The notes under the pieces were generated by a model. It was not told the DNA's origin, did no database searches, and was given only the letters and a program-made list of their open reading frames with translations. From positions 1 to 45,585 of the IMG/VR virus record IMGVR_UViG_3300022665_001388: a stretch of 45,585 nucleotides of DNA. One strand, 5' to 3'. This DNA is from a virus. Shown one piece after another: positions 22,269-45,294 of the stretch. The stretch's first letter is position 1; each line of letters begins with the position of its first letter. The translations under genes and the position numbers were made by a program.

Positions 22269-23123
22269 ATGAACATCAACCGTACGTTCAAGACGACCGG
22301 CGAACTTTTGGAAACCATCGGGAAGCTTCCCAACGATAAGACGCGGGCGTCGACGGGGAACAGCGCCTCCCACGGATGGGATCTCGATTGCGGTTTCAAA
22401 AACGCGGTGAAGTACGCAAGCGAGGGATGGGCCGAGGGTCTTGAGGCGATCACGCGGGCGCGGAAGGCGTTGGGGGACATCGTCAAGCCGAAGTCAACAC
22501 AACAGGATTTCATACTACGGGAAGACGGCGGATCGTTCATCGAGGTGGGCGCGTATTGTTCCGGTGAGCCGGAGTGCTTCGGGGACTTCACCTCGCCCGA
22601 CCGCCAGACGAAGCCGATCCGAATCATCGTCAACATCTCGGCGAGCGCCTTTGTCAGCGCGGATAGCATACGCCGACGCGGTGCGGTCATCGTTGCGGCG
22701 ATCGACGTGTTGGAGGAGCGGGGTTTCATGGTAGAGGTGTTGGTTTGCGAGGCGGTAACCCACGGCAAGGATCGCCGGTTCGGGTGGCGCGTGTTGGTCA
22801 AGGAAACAGGGCAGAACTTGGATCTTGATCGGTTGGCGTTCTGGCTCACCCACCCCGCGGCGTTGCGCCGACTTGGTTTCGCGGTGTGCGAGTTGGAAGA
22901 CAAGCGGACGCGGGAGCAGTTCGGGTTCGTGATCTACGGCGGGTACGGTATCCCCGCCGAGGTTCAGCTCACCGACGACGACCTCGCCGGAGATCATATT
23001 TATTTCCCGTCTCGCGGCATCGGAAGCTATTCCAGCGATGACGAAGCGCTCCGGATCATCCGTAACCTGTTGATTGATAAGGGCTTCCTCCTTGAGGCGG
23101 ACCTCGAAGAAAAAAGAATCTAA
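22269..23123 (+). CDS. Possible VWA-fold protein paired with the MoxR-like ATPase
   Basis: A 284-residue protein. I do not recognise the N-terminal part (residues 1-110). The segment from 117 reads RIIVNISASAFVSADS, with RRRGAVIVAAIDVLEERGF and VEVLVCEAV next. This resembles the first strand, metal-site loop, helix and second strand of a von Willebrand A domain, where the usual DxSxS is NxSxS (N122, S124, S126). VWA proteins are the standard partners of MoxR-type AAA+ ATPases, and such an ATPase is the next gene. The VWA assignment is an inference. An alternative is an unrelated phage protein family that simply co-occurs with the ATPase. Confidence 0.55.
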   Translation: MNINRTFKTTGELLETIGKLPNDKTRASTGNSASHGWDLDCGFKNAVKYASEGWAEGLEAITRARKALGDIVKPKSTQQDFILREDGGSFIEVGAYCSGEPECFGDFTSPDRQTKPIRIIVNISASAFVSADSIRRRGAVIVAAIDVLEERGFMVEVLVCEAVTHGKDRRFGWRVLVKETGQNLDLDRLAFWLTHPAALRRLGFAVCELEDKRTREQFGFVIYGGYGIPAEVQLTDDDLAGDHIYFPSRGIGSYSSDDEALRIIRNLLIDKGFLLEADLEEKRI

Positions 23124-23126
23124 AAA

Positions 23127-23169
23127 CCTCGAAAAAGGATTGGATCAAGGGGTTTGTTCGAGGTAGGAT
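23127..23169 (+). promoter_or_regulatory. Putative promoter with overlapping inverted repeat upstream of the MoxR-like gene
   Basis: TTGGAT (23140-23145), an 18-base spacer and TAGGAT (23164-23169) form a plausible promoter 49 bases before the ATPase start. A perfect inverted repeat CCTCGAA (23127-23133) / TTCGAGG (23157-23163) brackets the -35 box and abuts the -10 box, as an operator would. It could alternatively be a weak hairpin at the end of the preceding gene, but no T run follows. Confidence 0.5.
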
Positions 23170-23217
23170 ACGGTCGTGATGAGTAGCTTTTACCACCCAA
23201 ACCAAGGAGCCGAGGCG

Positions 23218-24600
23218 ATGAGAACTTACCGCATTGTGAAGTCCCCCGAGAGCGCGGTCGCCGTTGATGGTACCCCGATCGTAACGGGTACCGCGTGCTG
23301 GTACCGGAAGACCCGCGAGGTGGACGGCCCCATCGTCAGCGAGTTCATCCCCTACGTTGGATGGGAGGAGATCCCCGCCGGCTTCGACATCCACCTCGTC
23401 AAGGCGATGCTCCTTCAGACCAACGTGTTGTACTTGAAGGCGTGCGCCTTCCAGAACAAGAGCGAGGGGCAGAACACGTACGCGCGGATGGGTGAGCGCC
23501 ACTACATCTACCACGCCCGCAAGCTGGACCTCGTCAAGTACCTCGTGGGTGAGGTGCCGTTTCTTCCCCGCCCGATTATCAAGAGCGGCGAGGGGCGTGG
23601 CCCCAGGGGTACGGGCGGCGACGATGGTAACACCGGACCCGCCCCCGTCGCAGTCACGACCCCCGACCCAGCGGTAACGCCGATCGTCACCGTGGACCTG
23701 TCGAAGTTGGAGAAGGATCTACGCGACAAGATCGCCGCGGAACTTGCCACAGCCCTGGGGGAAGATAAGATCACCGGGATCTTGCAGGAGATCGTTCGCA
23801 AGAACACGCCGACGACCGTTGAGATTGTCAAGCCGGACGGGTCCACGAAGATCATCGGTCTCCAGCACGAAACCTTCCCGAAGCTTCTCAAGTACGCCAG
23901 TACGGGGTGCAACGTGTACATGGTCGGGCCCGCGGGTTCCGGCAAGTCGCGCGCCGGGCTCGAAGTCGCGAAAGCTTTGGATCTTCCCTTCTACGCGGAG
24001 TCGGTCAGCCAACAGACCCCGGTGTCGAAGTTGATGGGCTACATGGATGCCAACGGCAACTACGTTTCGACAAGCTTCCGCCGTGCCGTCGAGAACGGTG
24101 GTGTTTTCCTCCTGGACGAGATTGACAACGGTAACGCCAACGTGATCGCAAGCTTGAACGCAACCGCGGCATGCGGTGCGGGCGAGTTGGTTTCCTTCCC
24201 CGACGGGATGGTCGTCAAGCACAAGGATTGTATTATCCTTGCCGCGGCGAACACCATCGGCCGGGGCGGGGATCGCGAGTACGTAGGGCGCAATCCCCTG
24301 GACGCCGCAAGCATCGACCGCTTCATTTTCCTTGAGTGGAATTACGACGAGAAGCTTGAGAACGCCCTTTGCGCCTTGCAGAAGATCGATAGCGCGTGGG
24401 TGACGTGGGTTCAGAAGATTCGCCGCGCCACCGGCGAGCTCGGCGTGCGGTTGGTCGTTTCCCCGCGTGCGGCGGTGAACGGTGGTAAGTTGATTCAGAT
24501 CGGTGTCTCCTGGGAAGAGGCTGAGTACGCGGCCATCTTCAAGGGCATTGACACGGACCAGGTATTGAAAATCAAAACGCGCGCCAAAAACTACGCGTGA
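23218..24600 (+). CDS. MoxR/CobS-like AAA+ ATPase
   Basis: A 460-residue protein. An N-terminal non-ATPase part (1-150) is followed by a Gly/Pro linker, then a AAA+ domain with Walker A GPAGSGKS (237-244), Walker B VFLLDEID (D300, E301), and a sensor-1-like AAANTIGRGGD, with arginine-finger-region RNPLDAASIDRF. Residues such as SVSQQTPVSKLMGYMDANG resemble the MoxR/CobS group, which remodel protein or metal-enzyme complexes together with VWA partners. The gene before it may be such a partner. ATG at 23218 follows AAGGAG with an 8-base gap and is preferred over the upstream 23176. The role in the phage is unknown. Confidence 0.82.
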   Translation: MRTYRIVKSPESAVAVDGTPIVTGTACWYRKTREVDGPIVSEFIPYVGWEEIPAGFDIHLVKAMLLQTNVLYLKACAFQNKSEGQNTYARMGERHYIYHARKLDLVKYLVGEVPFLPRPIIKSGEGRGPRGTGGDDGNTGPAPVAVTTPDPAVTPIVTVDLSKLEKDLRDKIAAELATALGEDKITGILQEIVRKNTPTTVEIVKPDGSTKIIGLQHETFPKLLKYASTGCNVYMVGPAGSGKSRAGLEVAKALDLPFYAESVSQQTPVSKLMGYMDANGNYVSTSFRRAVENGGVFLLDEIDNGNANVIASLNATAACGAGELVSFPDGMVVKHKDCIILAAANTIGRGGDREYVGRNPLDAASIDRFIFLEWNYDEKLENALCALQKIDSAWVTWVQKIRRATGELGVRLVVSPRAAVNGGKLIQIGVSWEEAEYAAIFKGIDTDQVLKIKTRAKNYA

Positions 24601-30873: not shown

Positions 30874-31253
30874 ACGATGATTTCTCCCGGATGAACCCAG
30901 ATGACATCCCGGATGTCGCATGTACGAGGTGCGGTACCGTTGCACCGTCGCACCAGTCTCCCAACGATATTTTAGGGGTCGAGCCGTGGTGCTTGTCGTG
31001 TGTAAATTCGTGGCTCGACCGCGAGACCGCGAGTGTAATTCTGGAGCAAGGAGGGGGGGACGATCATCCGGAACTCCGGAGAATTCTACGGAACGAGATG
31101 GAAAGGATAACGGTACGAGTTAAAAGGATTGCATCCGACCGCGACCGTTACAAACGACAACTCGACAAGTTGATCCGGGTTTGTAAGATTGCTAAAGGGA
31201 TCTGGGTCCTTCTTGATAAGACCGTTGTGGACATCGAAGAGGAAAATTCTTGA
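30870..31253 (+). CDS. Zinc-ribbon and coiled-coil protein
   Basis: A 127-residue protein. A four-Cys zinc site (CTRC at about 18-21, CLSC at about 41-44) is followed by a long charged helix (residues about 60-110) of coiled-coil character containing ERITVRVKRIASDRDRYKRQ. The ATG overlaps the previous stop (ATGA). It is probably a small DNA- or protein-binding accessory factor. No family is recognised. Confidence 0.6.
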   Translation: MNDDFSRMNPDDIPDVACTRCGTVAPSHQSPNDILGVEPWCLSCVNSWLDRETASVILEQGGGDDHPELRRILRNEMERITVRVKRIASDRDRYKRQLDKLIRVCKIAKGIWVLLDKTVVDIEEENS

Positions 31254-31972
31254 TGCATTACCACGGTGGCAAATCACGGCTGGCAAAACGGTTTTGCAGT
31301 TTCCTCACGGAGTCGTTGATGGATACGCGTGGGAAGTTTTGCGAGCCGTTCGTTGGTGCGTTCAACATCATGCCGGTGATCTCCAGGCACGTGAAGCATG
31401 CATCGTGTTCGGATATCCACGCCGGTCTGATCTGTTTGTTGAACGCGGTTCAGGATGGGTGGGTTGGTCCGGAAGACATCCCGGAGGCCGAGTACTTCCG
31501 AATCAAAAAGCTGAATGACTTTACCGATCCGCTCACATCGTTTGCATCGTTCGGTACTTCCTTTGGTGGTAAAGAGTGGGGGGCTTACGCGAGATACTTC
31601 GGGCAGAATTTCGCGCGTAGTGCAAGATCTGGTCTCGGGAAAAAGGTGGGGTATATGGACGATGTGATCTTCCACTGTTGCGCGTTCGAAGATGTGTACG
31701 AGACCGGGTCCACAGTGTATTGTGATCCGCCGTACCGTGGAACCGGGCAGTACCGTGCAAACCTCGGTGAAGCTTTTGACTTTGATAAGTTTGATGCGTG
31801 GTGCCTTGAAACCGCACAGCATGGCAACCGCGTTTTCATTTCAGAGCTCAGTCCGGCGCTACCGTGGAAGAAAGTATGGACCGGAACGCGGAAGATGATG
31901 ATGAACAAAGCCCAGGGGAAGTTCAAGAAGAGGTACGACGTTACCGAGTACCTTTACGAAGTGGTAGTTTGA
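31253..31972 (+). CDS. DNA adenine methylase (Dam-type)
   Basis: A 239-residue class alpha adenine-N6 methyltransferase. It opens with HYHGGKSRLAKRF and CEPFVGAFNIMP (AdoMet-binding motifs X and I). The catalytic DPPY is at 158-161, followed by RGTGQY. It methylates adenine in a target I cannot predict (not necessarily GATC). ATG at 31253 overlaps the TGA of the preceding gene. No restriction endonuclease gene is adjacent, so it is an orphan enzyme, probably protecting phage DNA or altering regulation. Confidence 0.88.
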   Translation: MHYHGGKSRLAKRFCSFLTESLMDTRGKFCEPFVGAFNIMPVISRHVKHASCSDIHAGLICLLNAVQDGWVGPEDIPEAEYFRIKKLNDFTDPLTSFASFGTSFGGKEWGAYARYFGQNFARSARSGLGKKVGYMDDVIFHCCAFEDVYETGSTVYCDPPYRGTGQYRANLGEAFDFDKFDAWCLETAQHGNRVFISELSPALPWKKVWTGTRKMMMNKAQGKFKKRYDVTEYLYEVVV

Positions 31973-40059: not shown

Positions 40060-40180
40060 GGTGACCGTGTCAACGTGGGAGGCGGGTTTCATCGAAGGCG
40101 TTGTTTACAAGAATAGTGCGTGGTCCCTCACCGATCAGCAACGGAAGATCGCGATGCAAATCTTGGAGAAGTATTCATGA
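39977..40180 (+). CDS. Small hypothetical protein
   Basis: A 67-residue protein, GTG start (39977) inside the end of the primase-helicase gene with AAAGGA upstream; a longer version from 39932 is possible but lacks a site. It has an acidic centre (RRRLQDVDEDDEVTVSTWEA) and a terminal helix (LTDQQRKIAMQILEKYS). The stop overlaps the next start (ATGA). No family is recognised. Confidence 0.5.
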   Translation: MIDIGKVPESVTDGEIRRRLQDVDEDDEVTVSTWEAGFIEGVVYKNSAWSLTDQQRKIAMQILEKYS

Positions 40181-40452
40181 TAAGGTTGTATCCAGAACGC
40201 GTGGCGATTGACGTCCTACACGTAGAGTTTAACGTTGGGGTTTCTACTGAACCAGGGGATGGGAGTCATCACTTCAGACTTGGTAAGCTTGATGTAGAAA
40301 TTGAGATTATTAGTCTTGACCGTCTCGATCTTGAGGAAACGTACGAGATCAAAATCCTTGGTGAGAGGTGGAGTGAAATACAACTCATGAAAGAGGAGTT
40401 TAATGGGAAGATATACGGGTACTTTGCGAAAGTGTTTGGGGTGTTCCCGTGA
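40177..40452 (+). CDS. Small hypothetical protein
   Basis: A 91-residue protein starting MIRLYPERVAIDVLHVEFNV, rich in predicted beta strands with aromatic and charged residues. It is coupled on both sides (ATGA upstream, GTGA downstream). No recognised motif; its role in the replication operon is unknown. Confidence 0.55.
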   Translation: MIRLYPERVAIDVLHVEFNVGVSTEPGDGSHHFRLGKLDVEIEIISLDRLDLEETYEIKILGERWSEIQLMKEEFNGKIYGYFAKVFGVFP

Positions 40453-40940
40453 GCCCGAAAGACAAAGACGGCAAGAAGCGGATCCGGTTCACGTTCACGC
40501 CGGATGGTGTTGCGGGGTTGTTTCTCGCGTCGTTGCCCCCAGGAGGCGGTGGACGTGCGGAACAACTAACGCTCGGGCAGATCATCGAAGACGCGTACAA
40601 CCAGGGGATCTACGTTGGTCTGGAAAGGGGGGAGCAAGTTTTCAAGGCGTTGCATGAGACAGGGGAAGTGTTGGGACCGGCGGGGTTTTGCAAGCGTGAG
40701 GAGTCAGGATCTTGGGACTCCGCTCTTGATGTGGAGGTGGACGAGGGAGAAGCGGTAGCGGTGAATTGTAATTGTTTCTGTTGTCAAGTGGAACACGCAG
40801 CGGAGGAGGTGGCATATGCCGCAGAAGAAGCTAAAAAAGAAAGGGACGAAGAAACCGGGTCTGGACCGGAAGACGGAAGGGCCCTCCGGGGTCCCCCCAC
40901 GGGGCCCACCACGGGGGGCAAGGAAGGCGAAGGGGCGTAA
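40449..40940 (+). CDS. Hypothetical protein with Cys cluster
   Basis: A 163-residue protein with GTG start overlapping the previous stop. A basic N-terminus (SPKDKDGKKRIRFTFTPDGV) is followed by LTLGQIIEDAYNQGIYVGLE, a helical unit, a region with CNCFCC, and a disordered acidic/Gly/Pro C-terminus. The last 125 bases overlap the ParB-like gene in another frame, so part of the tail may be selected mainly in the other frame. No family is recognised. Confidence 0.5.
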   Translation: MSPKDKDGKKRIRFTFTPDGVAGLFLASLPPGGGGRAEQLTLGQIIEDAYNQGIYVGLERGEQVFKALHETGEVLGPAGFCKREESGSWDSALDVEVDEGEAVAVNCNCFCCQVEHAAEEVAYAAEEAKKERDEETGSGPEDGRALRGPPTGPTTGGKEGEGA

Positions 40941-41589
40941 GATACGGCGGAATGGCCCTAACGGGCGTATGAAGACGGGAACGCCTTCCTGGCGGAAATT
41001 GCCGGCGTACAGGCGACGCGTGCGCGTGGGCTACGAGGAGGTTTTGTTGACGGTGTTGACGCCGTGGGGAGACAACCCGCGGTTCAACGCCGACGCCGTG
41101 CCGATGCTCGCGGATCTGATCCGGAAACATGGGTTTGCGGGTGTCATCGTCGCGACCCCCGACGGCGTGATCCGTGCGGGGCATACCCGCTACGCGGCGT
41201 TGAAGCATCTCGGGTGGGAAAAGGTATGGGTGCACTGGAAAGACTTCGACTCGGAAGAAGAGGCGGAAAACTTCGCGCTGGCGGATAACAAAGCGGGTGA
41301 GTGGGCAAGTTGGGATCACGCGAAACTCGCAAAGCTTTTTCGTTCGCGGGTTATGGTTGAGATGAAAGAGTTGGAAGCATCAACCGGGTTCCGCCAACAG
41401 GAGATACAGTGGGCCGGCGTCAGAGCGGTGGACCCGAGGGATGTTAAAGATCCAGAGAACGAAACGGGGTCTGAGGATTTCAAGTTCGTTCTTCGCATCG
41501 ATGATATCACGGATGCCGACAAGAAAAAGATTCTGCGCAAGGTGCAGAAGGCGTTGGAGGGAACCGGGTACGTAGCGGGGGTATTTTGA
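40816..41589 (+). CDS. ParB/sulfiredoxin-like nuclease-domain protein
   Basis: A 257-residue protein. The ParB-type core (residues about 75-150) has DNPRFNADAVPMLADLIRKH, then GVIVATPDGVIRAGHTRYAA with the GHTR signature, and later LADNKAGEWASWDHAKL. These are typical of phage ParB-like proteins seen near DNA methylases and modification genes. The N-terminus is strongly basic and disordered (KKLKKKGTKKPG). It could be an adaptor, a CTP-dependent DNA clamp or a nuclease. It starts with GGAGGAGG six bases upstream and lies directly before dpdA. Confidence 0.8.
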   Translation: MPQKKLKKKGTKKPGLDRKTEGPSGVPPRGPPRGARKAKGRKIRRNGPNGRMKTGTPSWRKLPAYRRRVRVGYEEVLLTVLTPWGDNPRFNADAVPMLADLIRKHGFAGVIVATPDGVIRAGHTRYAALKHLGWEKVWVHWKDFDSEEEAENFALADNKAGEWASWDHAKLAKLFRSRVMVEMKELEASTGFRQQEIQWAGVRAVDPRDVKDPENETGSEDFKFVLRIDDITDADKKKILRKVQKALEGTGYVAGVF

Positions 41590-41590
41590 T

Positions 41591-42742
41591 ATGGGGATCA
41601 TGAAAAGACGCCTCGACGAGTTGCAGGGGCGGTCGTCGACACGGCCGGCGAAGAAAAAGAAACGGGCGACGCCAACGACGCCAGCGGCGATGACGCACTA
41701 CACGTTGCAACGCGATGCGGCGATGAAAGTGCCAGGGTATATCGTGAAGCCTTCCCCCAGGATTCCGCTGCTTGTTTCGTTCTCACACTTGCGAGATCCC
41801 GGAGTTCTAAGCAATTGGGAGATCTCCGGTACTCTAAAACTATCTTACGATGGTCTCGTGGATACGATGTTGGTGCCGGGGTCGTTCGGTGCGTACATGG
41901 CGGGGGAACCGGTGAAGTTGGATGAATACATCCGGTTCATTCACAAGTACAAACGGATCTGGCATGCGTACGCGGCGCTCGAAGTAGTACGAGATCCTGG
42001 GGAAACGTTGGAGAACTTTCGGGAGATGCAGCGGCAGGGGTTGAACCCGATCCCGGTGCACACGGCAGGGAACACCAAAGCGGATATGGATCGGTTGTTT
42101 CAAGAGTCGCCGTTGGGTTTTGTGATGATCGATGGTATTTCTGTGGCGGCGTTGCGAAAGGATGGTGGTGCGGGTTTGATCAAGCAACGGATGGGATGGG
42201 CGCGTGGCCGTCCGGTGCACTGGTTGGGGTACAACCGCGAGGGGATGATGCGTGGGTTCAAACCGTTCTCCGTGGATTCGCGAAAGTGGATGCATGGTTT
42301 CCGCTACGGCGCTCTTGAGTTGTACATGGGGAACGGGCGCTGGTGGAACTTCAAAGATGGACCCGGGGCCATCGATCTAATCAAGGCGGACACTTTGCCC
42401 AAGGGTGTTTTAAGGGTGTTAAAATCCCAGGCAGAGTGGTGCGGGTTTTCCCTTGACGATCTAACGGATCCAAGTCGATGGGCGAAACGCCCGGGCGCGG
42501 AGGGAGTTGCTTCACTTTCGATCTGGGGGTGGATTCAATACGTGCGGGAGTTCTATCATAAGTTCGGGATGCGTATTTTCTTCGCCGGTGTCGGTTCAGA
42601 TAGTGTAGTCGATGAGGTTCTTGTGCACTACGTACGGATCCTTGAACAGAAAGGCGGGTTTACCTGGCTCGAGGGAAAGCTGGATGAGATTCCAAAAGTG
42701 GAAGGGTGGAACCCGGAAGAAGGAAACAAAGGAGGCGAGTGA
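41591..42742 (+). CDS. dpdA: DpdA-like DNA guanine transglycosylase (7-deazaguanine insertion), altered active site
   Basis: A 383-residue TGT-fold protein of the phage DpdA type. Shared segments are GEPVKLDEYIRFIHKY, TLENFREMQRQGLNPIPVH and KPFSVDSRKWMHGFRYG, with D229 in the SVDS motif in the place of the nucleophile of TGT. DpdA exchanges guanine in DNA for preQ0 or a derivative. At the place of the usual DSG-x-F motif the protein reads LVPGSFGAY (V95, P96, G97), so the expected Asp is missing, and the DxI-like motif has Glu131. Whether activity persists is open. The first 30 residues are basic (RPAKKKKRATP). The stop overlaps the queC start, and an unusual ParB-like gene precedes it. Identity is from recognised motifs only. 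Confidence 0.72.
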   Translation: MGIMKRRLDELQGRSSTRPAKKKKRATPTTPAAMTHYTLQRDAAMKVPGYIVKPSPRIPLLVSFSHLRDPGVLSNWEISGTLKLSYDGLVDTMLVPGSFGAYMAGEPVKLDEYIRFIHKYKRIWHAYAALEVVRDPGETLENFREMQRQGLNPIPVHTAGNTKADMDRLFQESPLGFVMIDGISVAALRKDGGAGLIKQRMGWARGRPVHWLGYNREGMMRGFKPFSVDSRKWMHGFRYGALELYMGNGRWWNFKDGPGAIDLIKADTLPKGVLRVLKSQAEWCGFSLDDLTDPSRWAKRPGAEGVASLSIWGWIQYVREFYHKFGMRIFFAGVGSDSVVDEVLVHYVRILEQKGGFTWLEGKLDEIPKVEGWNPEEGNKGGE

Positions 42743-43557
42743 TGCAATTCTTGACCGATCAGATTATGAAGGCGAACGAGAAGATCGTCGTTGCCGTTTC
42801 CGGGGGGATGGACAGCGCGACGCTTTTACACGATCTCGCATCGTCATTGATTCATTGGGAAGGGATGCCCCCGACTGGTGCCGGTTCTTTGATGGAGCGG
42901 GTTTATCCGATCACGTTTGACTACGGGCAACGGTACGTTAGAGAAACAACGCGGGCGCTTGAGTTGTGCCGGGGGTTGGGGTTGTCTTACAAGATCATCC
43001 ATGTCTCCCGGTTGCACGCGATTCTGGGCAAAGCGTACGCGCCGGACTCGCCGATTGTACCGAACCGAAACATGATCATGATCTCGATGGCGATGTCATA
43101 CGCGATTTCCCTGGGGTCGAAGTTGGTTCTGTTCGGAGTGCACGCGGAGGACTGGGAGCCGGGTGTCGGGAACGGTTGCAACCCCGAGTTCATTGAGGCG
43201 TTGGCAACGGCCGGGCGGTTATGCTGGGGGAACGTCGGCGCTGGTGTTGATCTCATGGCGCCGTATATCAAGATGGGGAAGGCGGACGTTCTGCGGGCGG
43301 GTTTGGCCGACGGGGTGGGGGTACCGTATCATCTGACGTGGAGTTGTCACGATGATGGAAAGCTTGCGTGCGGGAAGTGCGGAGGGTGCAAGGAACGCCT
43401 CGAAGCGTTCTGGAAAATCGGCGTGCGTGACCCTTTGCAATACGCCGAGAAAAATGATCAGACACATTATGAAGTGTTGTACACAGAGAGCGGCGAGACG
43501 TGGAGGGAGCTGACGCGGTTCGTGTACAAAGGAAAAGAGTTCGTTAACGTTTCATAG
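42742..43557 (+). CDS. queC: 7-cyano-7-deazaguanine synthase QueC
   Basis: A 271-residue enzyme of preQ0 synthesis that converts 7-carboxy-7-deazaguanine to preQ0 with ATP and ammonia. It has the PP-loop SGGMDS (20-25), the family segment PNRNMIMISMAMSYAISLGS and FGVHAEDWE. The zinc site is C202, C210, C213, C216 in TWSCHDDG and ACGKCGGC. It starts at ATG 42742 after AAAGGAGG, overlapping the dpdA stop. FolE, QueD and QueE, needed to make the substrate, are not in the window, so precursor may come from the host or from genes elsewhere in the genome. With dpdA it forms a compact DNA modification module. Confidence 0.92.
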   Translation: MQFLTDQIMKANEKIVVAVSGGMDSATLLHDLASSLIHWEGMPPTGAGSLMERVYPITFDYGQRYVRETTRALELCRGLGLSYKIIHVSRLHAILGKAYAPDSPIVPNRNMIMISMAMSYAISLGSKLVLFGVHAEDWEPGVGNGCNPEFIEALATAGRLCWGNVGAGVDLMAPYIKMGKADVLRAGLADGVGVPYHLTWSCHDDGKLACGKCGGCKERLEAFWKIGVRDPLQYAEKNDQTHYEVLYTESGETWRELTRFVYKGKEFVNVS

Positions 43558-43570
43558 CGTTTCATAGCGT
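43551..43570 (+). repeat. 10-base tandem duplication at the queC stop
   Basis: TTCATAGCGT is repeated twice (43551-43560, 43561-43570) and begins a third time. The first copy contains the queC stop codon, and the duplication has created a second TAG just after it. Confidence 0.75.
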
Positions 43571-43589
43571 TTCAGAAAGGAGTCGTGGT

Positions 43590-44090
43590 ATGGGAAGGCA
43601 TGGATTAAGATCGGGGCAATTGAAAGAGGGGCATGACTTGCCGGTTGCGAAGGAGGGGGGCGTGTTGGAAATTCTACGAGTGCGCCGGTATTCGTTGGGG
43701 TACCAGACGGTGAAGATGTTGATGGACGGTTCAGAGTACGGGAGTGCGGACTTCGAGATCACATCGGCGTACGATTTAGATGGGCGTTACCTGGGGGATA
43801 GCGCGATGGCGAGTATGCTCTGCGTCAAGGGCATCTCGGTGTTTCGGAAGACGCATCATTCTCATTGTGTGTGCTCGATCGGGCTCGACGAAAAGCGCGG
43901 GGTCTGGTACGGGTGGTCTCACCGGGCGATCGTCGGTTTTTCCCCGGGGAAGGGGCATAAGGTTTTCGATCCGAAGTTCAGGGGTGTTGACGGGGATGAA
44001 ACGTTGTTCGTTGAACACGGGACGGAGACGATCCGGACGTTGCGGCAAGCGCGAACTTCAGCTCAAAGATTTGCGAGGTTTGTGTCATGA
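43590..44090 (+). CDS. Hypothetical phage protein
   Basis: A 166-residue protein with ribosome site AAAGGAG before ATG 43590. The central segment CSIGLDEKRGVWYGWSHRAI followed by VGFSPGKGHKVF resembles a family of conserved phage proteins without known function. It lies between queC and the nucleotidase, so it could take part in nucleotide or DNA modification, but nothing in the sequence shows a catalytic site. The next gene overlaps its stop (ATGA). Confidence 0.65.
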   Translation: MGRHGLRSGQLKEGHDLPVAKEGGVLEILRVRRYSLGYQTVKMLMDGSEYGSADFEITSAYDLDGRYLGDSAMASMLCVKGISVFRKTHHSHCVCSIGLDEKRGVWYGWSHRAIVGFSPGKGHKVFDPKFRGVDGDETLFVEHGTETIRTLRQARTSAQRFARFVS

Positions 44091-44578
44091 CGAAGAGAAA
44101 GGTAAGCAAGATGTCGAAGAAGATCGAGATGCCGGGGTATCACACGGTAAGCATCGGGAACATAAGCGATGGACGTCTCCGGGATTTTATGCTCGTGCTC
44201 ACCGACGCGGATGGGGAAGTGTTGGTGCGGGTGAGCGCGATCGTCGCGGCGTTCTCCGACGCCGGTTTACAGGAGGTCAAAACGAAGATCATTTTGACCG
44301 GGGGTCTTGAGTTGTGGGTGAAACAGACGGTGCAAGAGATCTCGGACCTTTTGATGATGTTGGGGGGGCCGAACGCGGCGCCGTCGCAAGGGCCCACCGC
44401 GGATGATGCGGGTGCACAACCGGAAGCGACGGGGTCTGTACGGTCCCTGCTGGAAGACCACCCACCGCGTCGCAACGACGGCGTAGCGGACGCGGCGTCT
44501 CCTGGGGTTAGTAGCGGTCACCCGCAAGAGGGCGAGCCGGGGTATGCCGTTTATACGGACGGGGAGCCGAGGATATGA
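44087..44578 (+). CDS. Hypothetical protein with disordered C-terminus
   Basis: A 163-residue protein. A short basic N-terminus (TKRKVSKMSKK) is followed by a compact region with YHTVSIGNISDGRLRDFMLV and ILTGGLELWVKQTVQEISDL. The C-terminal 65 residues are Gly/Pro/Asp-rich and probably disordered. Starts by ATGA overlap; a second ATG at 44111 is possible. No family is recognised. Confidence 0.55.
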   Translation: MTKRKVSKMSKKIEMPGYHTVSIGNISDGRLRDFMLVLTDADGEVLVRVSAIVAAFSDAGLQEVKTKIILTGGLELWVKQTVQEISDLLMMLGGPNAAPSQGPTADDAGAQPEATGSVRSLLEDHPPRRNDGVADAASPGVSSGHPQEGEPGYAVYTDGEPRI

Positions 44579-45294
44579 AAGGGGCAAAGCCGGCGGTGCA
44601 AATCTTTTTGGATCTCGACGGCGTGCTGGCGGACTTTCATGCGGGAGTCTGCAGAGTGTTTGGTATCGACGTGAATGATCACGTGTTGTCTCGGGGTGCT
44701 GTTGATCTTGTCGAGATGGTGGGGAAGGCGTTGGAGTGGGGGACTCTCGGTGTTGGTGTTGGTGTTGGTGTTGGTGTTGGTGTTGGTGAGGGACGTTGGA
44801 AGAAAAAGTTCTGGGATCGGATTGATCAAGATGGGGTGGCATTTTGGGAGGACTTGCCGCGTGTTAGTGGTGCCGGTGAGTTGCTTCAAGCATGCGCGCG
44901 GGAGGTCGGGTGGGGGAACGTGTTCTTCTGTACCTCTTGCCCCAGGAATCCGTTTGCCACGGCGGGAAAGCTTTTTTGGATCAACCGGTTTTGTTTGGAG
45001 TTTTGTTCGGATGATGACGAACGAGGGATGCGTCGGCGGTACTTTATCACGGATGATAAGTGGATGCTTTCGCGGCGCGGAAGGGTGTTGATTGACGACT
45101 GGGAGAAGAATACATCGGTTTGGGAAGACCTCGGCGGGTCGGCACTGCTTTTTCCGTGGTGGTATAATCGGCGCGGATCGCGTGGAGATGGTGTTTTGCG
45201 CACGGAAGGGGTTTGTAACGAGTTGAGTGATTTAGTTTCACTTTGTAGGAAAGAAAGCCTTGTTTGTGGCGATGGAGATTCCGAAATACGTTGA
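44575..45294 (+). CDS. HAD-family 5'(3')-deoxyribonucleotidase-like protein
   Basis: A 239-residue protein. HAD motif I is FLDLDGVLADF (D13, D15), with a C-terminal LIDDWEKNTSVWEDLGGSAL that supplies the last acidic residues, as in phage 5'(3')-nucleotidases acting on deoxynucleotide monophosphates. In the middle, residues about 59-72 are a Gly-Val repeat encoded by a GGTGTT tandem repeat, an unusual insertion in a globular enzyme and probably a loop between cap and core. ATG overlaps the preceding stop. It probably adjusts nucleotide pools during DNA synthesis or modification. Substrate specificity is inferred from family. Confidence 0.78.
   Translation: MKGAKPAVQIFLDLDGVLADFHAGVCRVFGIDVNDHVLSRGAVDLVEMVGKALEWGTLGVGVGVGVGVGVGEGRWKKKFWDRIDQDGVAFWEDLPRVSGAGELLQACAREVGWGNVFFCTSCPRNPFATAGKLFWINRFCLEFCSDDDERGMRRRYFITDDKWMLSRRGRVLIDDWEKNTSVWEDLGGSALLFPWWYNRRGSRGDGVLRTEGVCNELSDLVSLCRKESLVCGDGDSEIR
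44749..44784 (+). repeat. (GGTGTT)6 tandem repeat in the nucleotidase gene
   Basis: Six perfect GGTGTT units followed by GGTGAG encode Gly-Val repeats inside the nucleotidase. The six-base period keeps the frame if copy number changes. Confidence 0.9.

Follow-up and report, generated by a model that had tools for sequence, protein, structure and literature searches.

A phage ParB-dpdA-queC cassette in which DpdA and QueC appear to have jointly lost base-binding residues

The Mycobacterium phage Rosebush and the Escherichia phage CAjan combine DpdA and QueC with a full pathway to 7-cyano-7-deazaguanine (preQ0), and dPreQ0 has been chemically verified for them (PMC6884629). In bacterial Dpd systems, DpdA works with DpdB, a member of the ParB superfamily (PMC12839542, PMC6392294) that has been described as a ParB-like ATPase (PMC12839542); because DpdB generally accompanies DpdA, ORF1 of CRB2 was proposed to be a DpdB homologue (PMC6392294). 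Here, we analyzed a related cassette in the IMG/VR virus contig IMGVR_UViG_3300022665_001388, a record of 45,585 bases classed as linear, which we refer to at its full length as the window. Like Rosebush and CAjan, the window encodes DpdA-like and QueC-like proteins; in contrast to them, it is known from its genes alone, its DNA modification is a prediction and the full pathway is absent from it. Moreover, both of its enzymes appear to lack residues that hold the base. While the presence of a ParB-like gene beside dpdA was already known, the joint loss of such residues in both enzymes of a known cassette appears to be new.

DpdA alignments were used in two scans of viral contigs and yielded 161 dpdA loci, some of the contigs having been fetched twice. 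A ParB-like gene was present in 134 of these loci and adjacent to dpdA in 124, and the remaining genes were found at similarly many loci (folE, 149; queD, 147; queE, 146; queC, 124). The arrangement ParB-dpdA-queC-queD-queE-folE is thus a common phage cassette. An earlier sequence-only reading of the window, which proposed a co-occurrence analysis of the two genes, had taken a ParB-like gene beside dpdA to be undescribed; the counts bear out the co-occurrence and, together with PMC6392294 and PMC12839542, overturn the claim of novelty.

The closest arrangement that we compared is that of the Arthrobacter phage Sonali (MK411746), in which the ParB-like gene, dpdA and queC follow each other in the same order and are tightly coupled, as in the window. 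The proteins are distant (approximately 23-24% identity for DpdA and 33% for QueC), and the base-binding residues that Sonali DpdA and QueC keep are lost from the window enzymes. Furthermore, Sonali and mycobacteriophages such as Knocker carry the complete six-gene cassette, whereas the window is without queD, queE and folE. The pairing of a ParB-like gene with dpdA also recalls bacterial Dpd; however, neither DpdC nor other Dpd genes were seen in the window, and the phage ParB-like protein is only a putative counterpart of DpdB. PADLOC gave no Dpd call in the window, but as canonical phage DpdA escapes it too, little can be read into this result.

Layout and identity of the cassette

The three genes are closely packed (Table 1). 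One base separates the ParB-like gene from dpdA, and the last base of the dpdA stop codon (TGA, 42740-42742) is at the same time the first base of the queC ATG. A clear ribosome site, AAAGGAGG, precedes the queC ATG, and another, GGAGGAGG, lies upstream of the ParB-like ATG. The codon adaptation of the cassette open reading frames (ORFs; 0.77-0.79) matches that of phage core genes, as exemplified by the polymerase gene (0.78). The ParB-like protein shows no departure at conserved columns, and all three columns conserved in dpdA-adjacent ParB proteins are kept.

Table 1. Genes of the cassette, residues discussed in the text and flanking genes in the window
Feature	Position	Strand	Description
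Two small genes	40120-40452, 40449-40940	+	Function unknown; left side of inserted block; no family match; absent from sister phage
ParB-like gene	40816..41589	+	257 aa; basic N-terminal tail of ~68 residues, then ParB N-domain; PHROG 620/8071/723, E down to 2.8e-22 (best match, PHROG 620)
DpdA-like gene	41591..42742	+	383 aa; TGT-superfamily barrel, altered base pocket; PHROG 887, 1.3e-10
DpdA N-terminal tail	41591..41755	+	~55 residues, Met-Gly start, Lys/Arg-rich, predicted disordered
DpdA V95 (GTG)	41873..41875	+	Position of invariant DSGAF Asp (E. coli TGT D89; Z. mobilis Asp102)
DpdA E131 (GAA)	41981..41983	+	Invariant Asp of L-D-V-I; Asp in 126/126 representatives
DpdA D181 (GAT)	42131..42133	+	First Gly of GG-L motif; Gly in 121/126 representatives
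DpdA H210	42218..42220	+	Conserved family His, kept; 126/126 representatives
DpdA D229	42275..42277	+	Nucleophile-position Asp in SVDS, kept; 126/126 representatives
queC-like gene	42742..43557	+	271 aa; PF06508, 9.9e-35
QueC G143-N144-G145	43168..43176	+	Replaces Y-P-D of YPDC substrate motif; E. coli Y131 and D133 align here
QueC H203	43348..43350	+	Replaces essential Tyr (E. coli Y189); Tyr in 75/77 representatives
Tad6-like gene	43590..44090	+	Type I Thoeris inhibitor family; directly after queC; PF25188, 1.6e-25
Unknown gene	44087..44578	+	Closes block, before nucleotidase-like gene
Nucleotidase-like gene	44575-45294		Common to window and sister phage

The DpdA-like protein matched PHROG 887, the family of queuine tRNA-ribosyltransferase/DpdA-like proteins. 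Compared with the Protein Data Bank (PDB), the DpdA family profile found the DNA-guanine transglycosylase 7ui4 (4.6e-4), while a search with the single window sequence gave no matches. An AlphaFold2 model of the window protein, compared with BFVD by Foldseek, retrieved phage queuine tRNA-ribosyltransferases (E value of 1.5e-13 for Sonali). Foldseek matches of DpdA models in the PDB were weak, the best hit to a tRNA-guanine transglycosylase (TGT) being 1j2b (E value of 0.01, probability 0.96); a canonical relative modelled with high confidence fared no better than the window model. The ORF list and the PHROG and Pfam matches thus agree with the sequence-only reading as to gene positions, the one-base gap, the stop/start overlap and the names ParB-like, DpdA-like and QueC; the fold on which that reading had staked its case came out as TGT/DpdA-like. 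As judged from these comparisons, the three genes do go back to the standard 7-deazaguanine DNA-modification cluster of phages.

Base-pocket residues of the DpdA-like and QueC-like proteins

Among 126 representative homologues, 14 DpdA columns were at least 95% conserved. The window protein departs at four of them (D95V, the nearby A98S, D131E and G181D), while no other representative departs at more than two. Each of the 124 representatives that are not gapped at column 95 has Asp there. In contrast, the window keeps D229, H210, N142, P155 and G213. In TGT, the base is bound through Asp102, Asp156, Gln203, Gly230 and Leu231 (PMC5395182); Asp280 serves as the nucleophile, and Asp102 removes a proton from the incoming base (PMC6165067). 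An hhalign comparison of the DpdA family with E. coli TGT set column 95 opposite D89, and the family profile put DSGAF opposite DCGAF of 7ui4. From their positions in the motifs, E131 would correspond to TGT Asp156 and D181-G182 to the Gly-Gly loop. With Val at position 95, the window protein lacks the DSGAF Asp that marks phage DpdA.

The register of the lost Asp proved stable. In 32 of 32 MAFFT realignments of random subsets, V95 fell at the DSGAF Asp column, and a hidden Markov model built without the window sequence gave the same result. In the AlphaFold2 models, a strand at residues 90-95 is followed by a helix at 98-103 in the window protein, and a strand at 35-40, ending at D40, by a helix at 43-48 in the relative L087; the alignment underlying the window model was itself in the V95 register, and hence this agreement is consistent but not independent. 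D91 was considered as the catalytic Asp on the basis of an early four-sequence alignment and one hmmalign run, a candidate countered by the realignments and the window-free model. A frameshift or sequencing error behind the lost Asp was rejected, as no gap interrupts the alignment at that point and the changes affect several separate codons spread over two genes.

QueC presents a similar picture. The PF06508 domain, the SGGxDS motif and the zinc cysteines assign the window protein to the QueC family, and every ATP and zinc residue checked is intact (SGGMDS, VPxRN, K180 and four zinc cysteines). Nevertheless, an intact YPDC motif and the Tyr equivalent to E. coli Y189 are missing. Across 77 representatives, the YPDC motif has Tyr in 66 and Asp in all 77, whereas the window has Gly at both positions (G-N-G-C). 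The Y131A and Y189A variants of E. coli QueC are inactive (PMC13329287), and the Tyr/Asp pair recognises the nucleobase, a Thr replacing the pair in QatC (PMC13279940). In addition, the loop before VPxRN comprises 13 residues compared with 28-29 in most homologues, although it is shortened in a few others too. Against the TIGR00364 equivalog model, the window protein scored 107.7 bits, below the cut-off of 150.3, which is weak evidence given that canonical phage QueC proteins went unscored.

No other homologue examined combines these DpdA and QueC losses. Searches for the patterns VPGSFGAY and GNGC-PEF matched only unrelated genes, and the last QueC scan revealed no protein that had lost YPDC in the manner of the window. 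No DpdA-like relatives were confirmed in bacterial genomes.

These substitutions bear directly on the view of the sequence-only reading, namely an anti-restriction module in which 7-carboxy-7-deazaguanine from the host or from unsequenced phage genes is turned into preQ0 by QueC and inserted by DpdA under the guidance of the ParB-like protein. The gene order, shared with Sonali and many other loci, speaks for this view, as do the retained DpdA nucleophile and some 15 kb of missing genome that might hold queD, queE and folE. Descent from a 7-deazaguanine DNA-modification cassette holds up, but the enzymes are non-standard, with base-residue losses in both. The DSGAF and LDV Asp residues, otherwise invariant, are replaced, and QueC is without an invariant Asp and two Tyr residues at which Ala substitution inactivates the E. 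coli enzyme; several exceptions would be needed at once. Since residues kept almost without exception are lost from DpdA as well as QueC, a functional preQ0 pathway with supply from the host or from distant genes becomes the less likely reading. Canonical preQ0 modification of DNA by this cassette is unlikely, the cassette probably does its standard job no longer, and to the guided anti-restriction scheme as a whole we assign a decidedly low probability.

A tree calculated from 61 proteins places the window DpdA inside a supported clade (99/90) of normal, Asp-bearing DpdAs, and the loss of the Asp is therefore derived. Another reading is a relic, that is, a normal cassette that was acquired, lost queD, queE and folE, and whose dpdA and queC are decaying without function. 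The upstream pathway genes are indeed absent from the window, the QueC losses fall at residues whose mutation kills the E. coli enzyme (PMC13329287), the loop before VPxRN is shortened, and the window DpdA sits on the longest branch of the tree; the branch and the missing upstream genes keep decay under consideration. However, the three ORFs are intact and closely spaced, two of them have strong ribosome sites, and codon use is normal. The catalytic Asp, the His and the ATP and zinc sites are likewise intact, the changes are grouped in the base pockets rather than scattered, and the ParB-like gene is unaltered at conserved columns. We consider a relic unlikely, although far from negligible.

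Side by side with these results, tandem or paired dpdA paralogues were seen in many phage cassettes (L086, L088, L092, L025, L046, L051, L061, L065, L068 and L033), some overlapping by one base, and wherever a DSGAF motif is present in such pairs, both copies keep its Asp. DpdA heterodimers are possible in these phages. The nearest relatives of the window DpdA (L005, L086-L089, L095, L102 and L103) are mostly without queC but keep queD, queE and folE. In L005, a membrane protein encoded at approximately 2220-2769 resembles, by eye, a YhhQ-type preQ0 transporter.

Genomic setting of the cassette

As the sequence-only reading had stated, no FolE, QueD or QueE was found among the window ORFs scanned, a result that applies to the 45,585-base fragment only. 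The record begins inside the portal gene, no terminase was seen among the scanned ORFs, and synteny with a sister phage (IMGVR_UViG_3300033153_006853) indicates that the window lacks a stretch of about 15 kb that joins the nucleotidase gene to the portal. The absence of queD, queE and folE therefore holds for the fragment, and in principle these genes could sit in the missing part; in relatives, they usually adjoin dpdA.

The sister phage shares the gene order of the window, with identities of 56% for the major capsid protein, 46% for the polymerase and 43% for the primase, and no dpdA, ParB or que genes were found in it. The primase and nucleotidase-like genes are separated by approximately 0.9 kb in the sister and 4.5 kb in the window. 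The block at 40120-44578, which comprises the ParB-like gene, dpdA, queC, the Tad6-like gene and three unknown genes, is absent from the syntenic sister (L191/L192) and occupies a variable spot between the two flanking genes. This insertion, like gene order, family membership and the substitutions, is seen directly. Most capsid relatives found in sequenced genomes are alphaproteobacterial, which is a hint at the host but no more.

The Tad6-like gene adjoining the cassette raises the question of a role in anti-defence, either with the QueC-family enzyme and a remodelled TGT-family protein modifying a protein, as in Cap9/Cap10 or as proposed for QatC acting on QatB, or with the inactive pair acting as a decoy or, in the manner of QTRT2, joining a host enzyme as its non-catalytic partner. 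Cap9 and Cap10 of the type IV cyclic oligonucleotide-based antiphage signaling system (CBASS), a QueC-like conjugase and a remodelled TGT-family protein (PMC11996544), and QatC show QueC-family enzymes outside preQ0 synthesis, and QatC, like the window protein, has lost the YPDC Tyr and Asp (PMC13279940). QTRT2, the non-catalytic subunit of eukaryotic TGT, is, like the window DpdA, without the Asp102-type residue, its Asp pair being changed to Cys and Glu (PMC6165067). Furthermore, the DpdA tail is long and predicted to be disordered (57 residues before strand 1 compared with fewer than 30 in most homologues; predicted local distance difference test score below 50 for residues 17-53), and among 36 gene starts inspected, Met-Gly starts occur only in the two genes that flank queC, namely dpdA and the Tad6-like gene. 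This last observation was post hoc, however, and Cap9 keeps YPDC (PMC13329287). The window DpdA belongs to the phage DNA-transglycosylase lineage, in contrast to Cap10, and unlike QTRT2 it keeps the nucleophile Asp; a family-profile search of the window found no second DpdA as a catalytic partner. No CD-NTase (cGAS/DncV-like nucleotidyltransferase), QatB, second TGT or other CBASS or Qat partner gene was found among the window ORFs scanned, and the ParB-like neighbour points to DNA. Taken together, the two variants receive very little of our credence.

Other features of the region were recorded in passing. Another Tad6-like gene lies near the dpdA cluster of L074/L075 (L074 13772-14410, PF25188, 1.3e-44). 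Elsewhere in the window, a uracil-DNA glycosylase family gene (PF03167, 29645-30661) and a D12-type adenine methyltransferase gene (31250-31972) represent further DNA-modification or repair genes of the same phage. A DUF7192 gene followed by a CobS/MoxR-like AAA gene (PHROG 249) occupies 22269-24600, short in-frame GGTGTT repeats lie within the nucleotidase-like gene (44750-44790), and a GATTTGTTT repeat is found near the contig end (45427-45479).

A possibly remodelled module and its potential functions

The intact, coupled ORFs, the normal codon use and the clustering of the changes lead us to favour, tentatively and at somewhat less than even chances, a still-expressed, remodelled module: base-reading residues have been lost from both enzymes, and the canonical exchange of guanine for preQ0 is gone or its substrate has changed. 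On this account, which like all that we say on function is argued from homology, the cassette descends from a standard one and lies, along with the Tad6-like anti-defence gene, in the variable spot between primase and nucleotidase. The residues reading the deazaguanine ring were lost from DpdA and QueC, while the DpdA nucleophile and the ATP and zinc sites of QueC stayed. The ParB-like protein would carry the DpdA-like protein to DNA, with the new basic tails helping. QueC would retain its ATP-dependent activation of a carboxylate, and the usual exchange would have disappeared or given way to one with another substrate. We infer that the module is expressed, directed to DNA and altered in its substrate. 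A bolder version, which we hold to be a long shot, is that DpdA and QueC have jointly left 7-deazaguanine and place another base into DNA or a small molecule onto a protein, possibly the Met-Gly tail of DpdA itself or the Tad6-like protein; the ParB-like protein would serve as the DNA adaptor.

Several observations weigh against remodelling. The module is known from one metagenomic contig only, and no close relative was found in which selection could be measured. We identified no alternative substrate. The match between E131 and TGT Asp156 is drawn from motif position, and the single hmmalign run sets D91 opposite the catalytic Asp, at the price of a four-residue insertion. Finally, the terminal branch of the window DpdA (1.83, compared with a median of 0.66) is as compatible with decay as with remodelling.

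It is usual to call a phage deazaguanine cassette functional on the strength of its gene names only. In the window cassette, all names match and both key enzymes are without base-holding residues, so that a prediction of modified DNA based on annotation would be misled. The frequency of ParB-like genes at dpdA loci makes the role of the ParB-like protein a clear question. Should the module still be active, it would offer a natural case of a DpdA/QueC pair shifting to another substrate, and such a shift, if true, would parallel that of the QueC-family proteins reported in CBASS and proposed for Qat.

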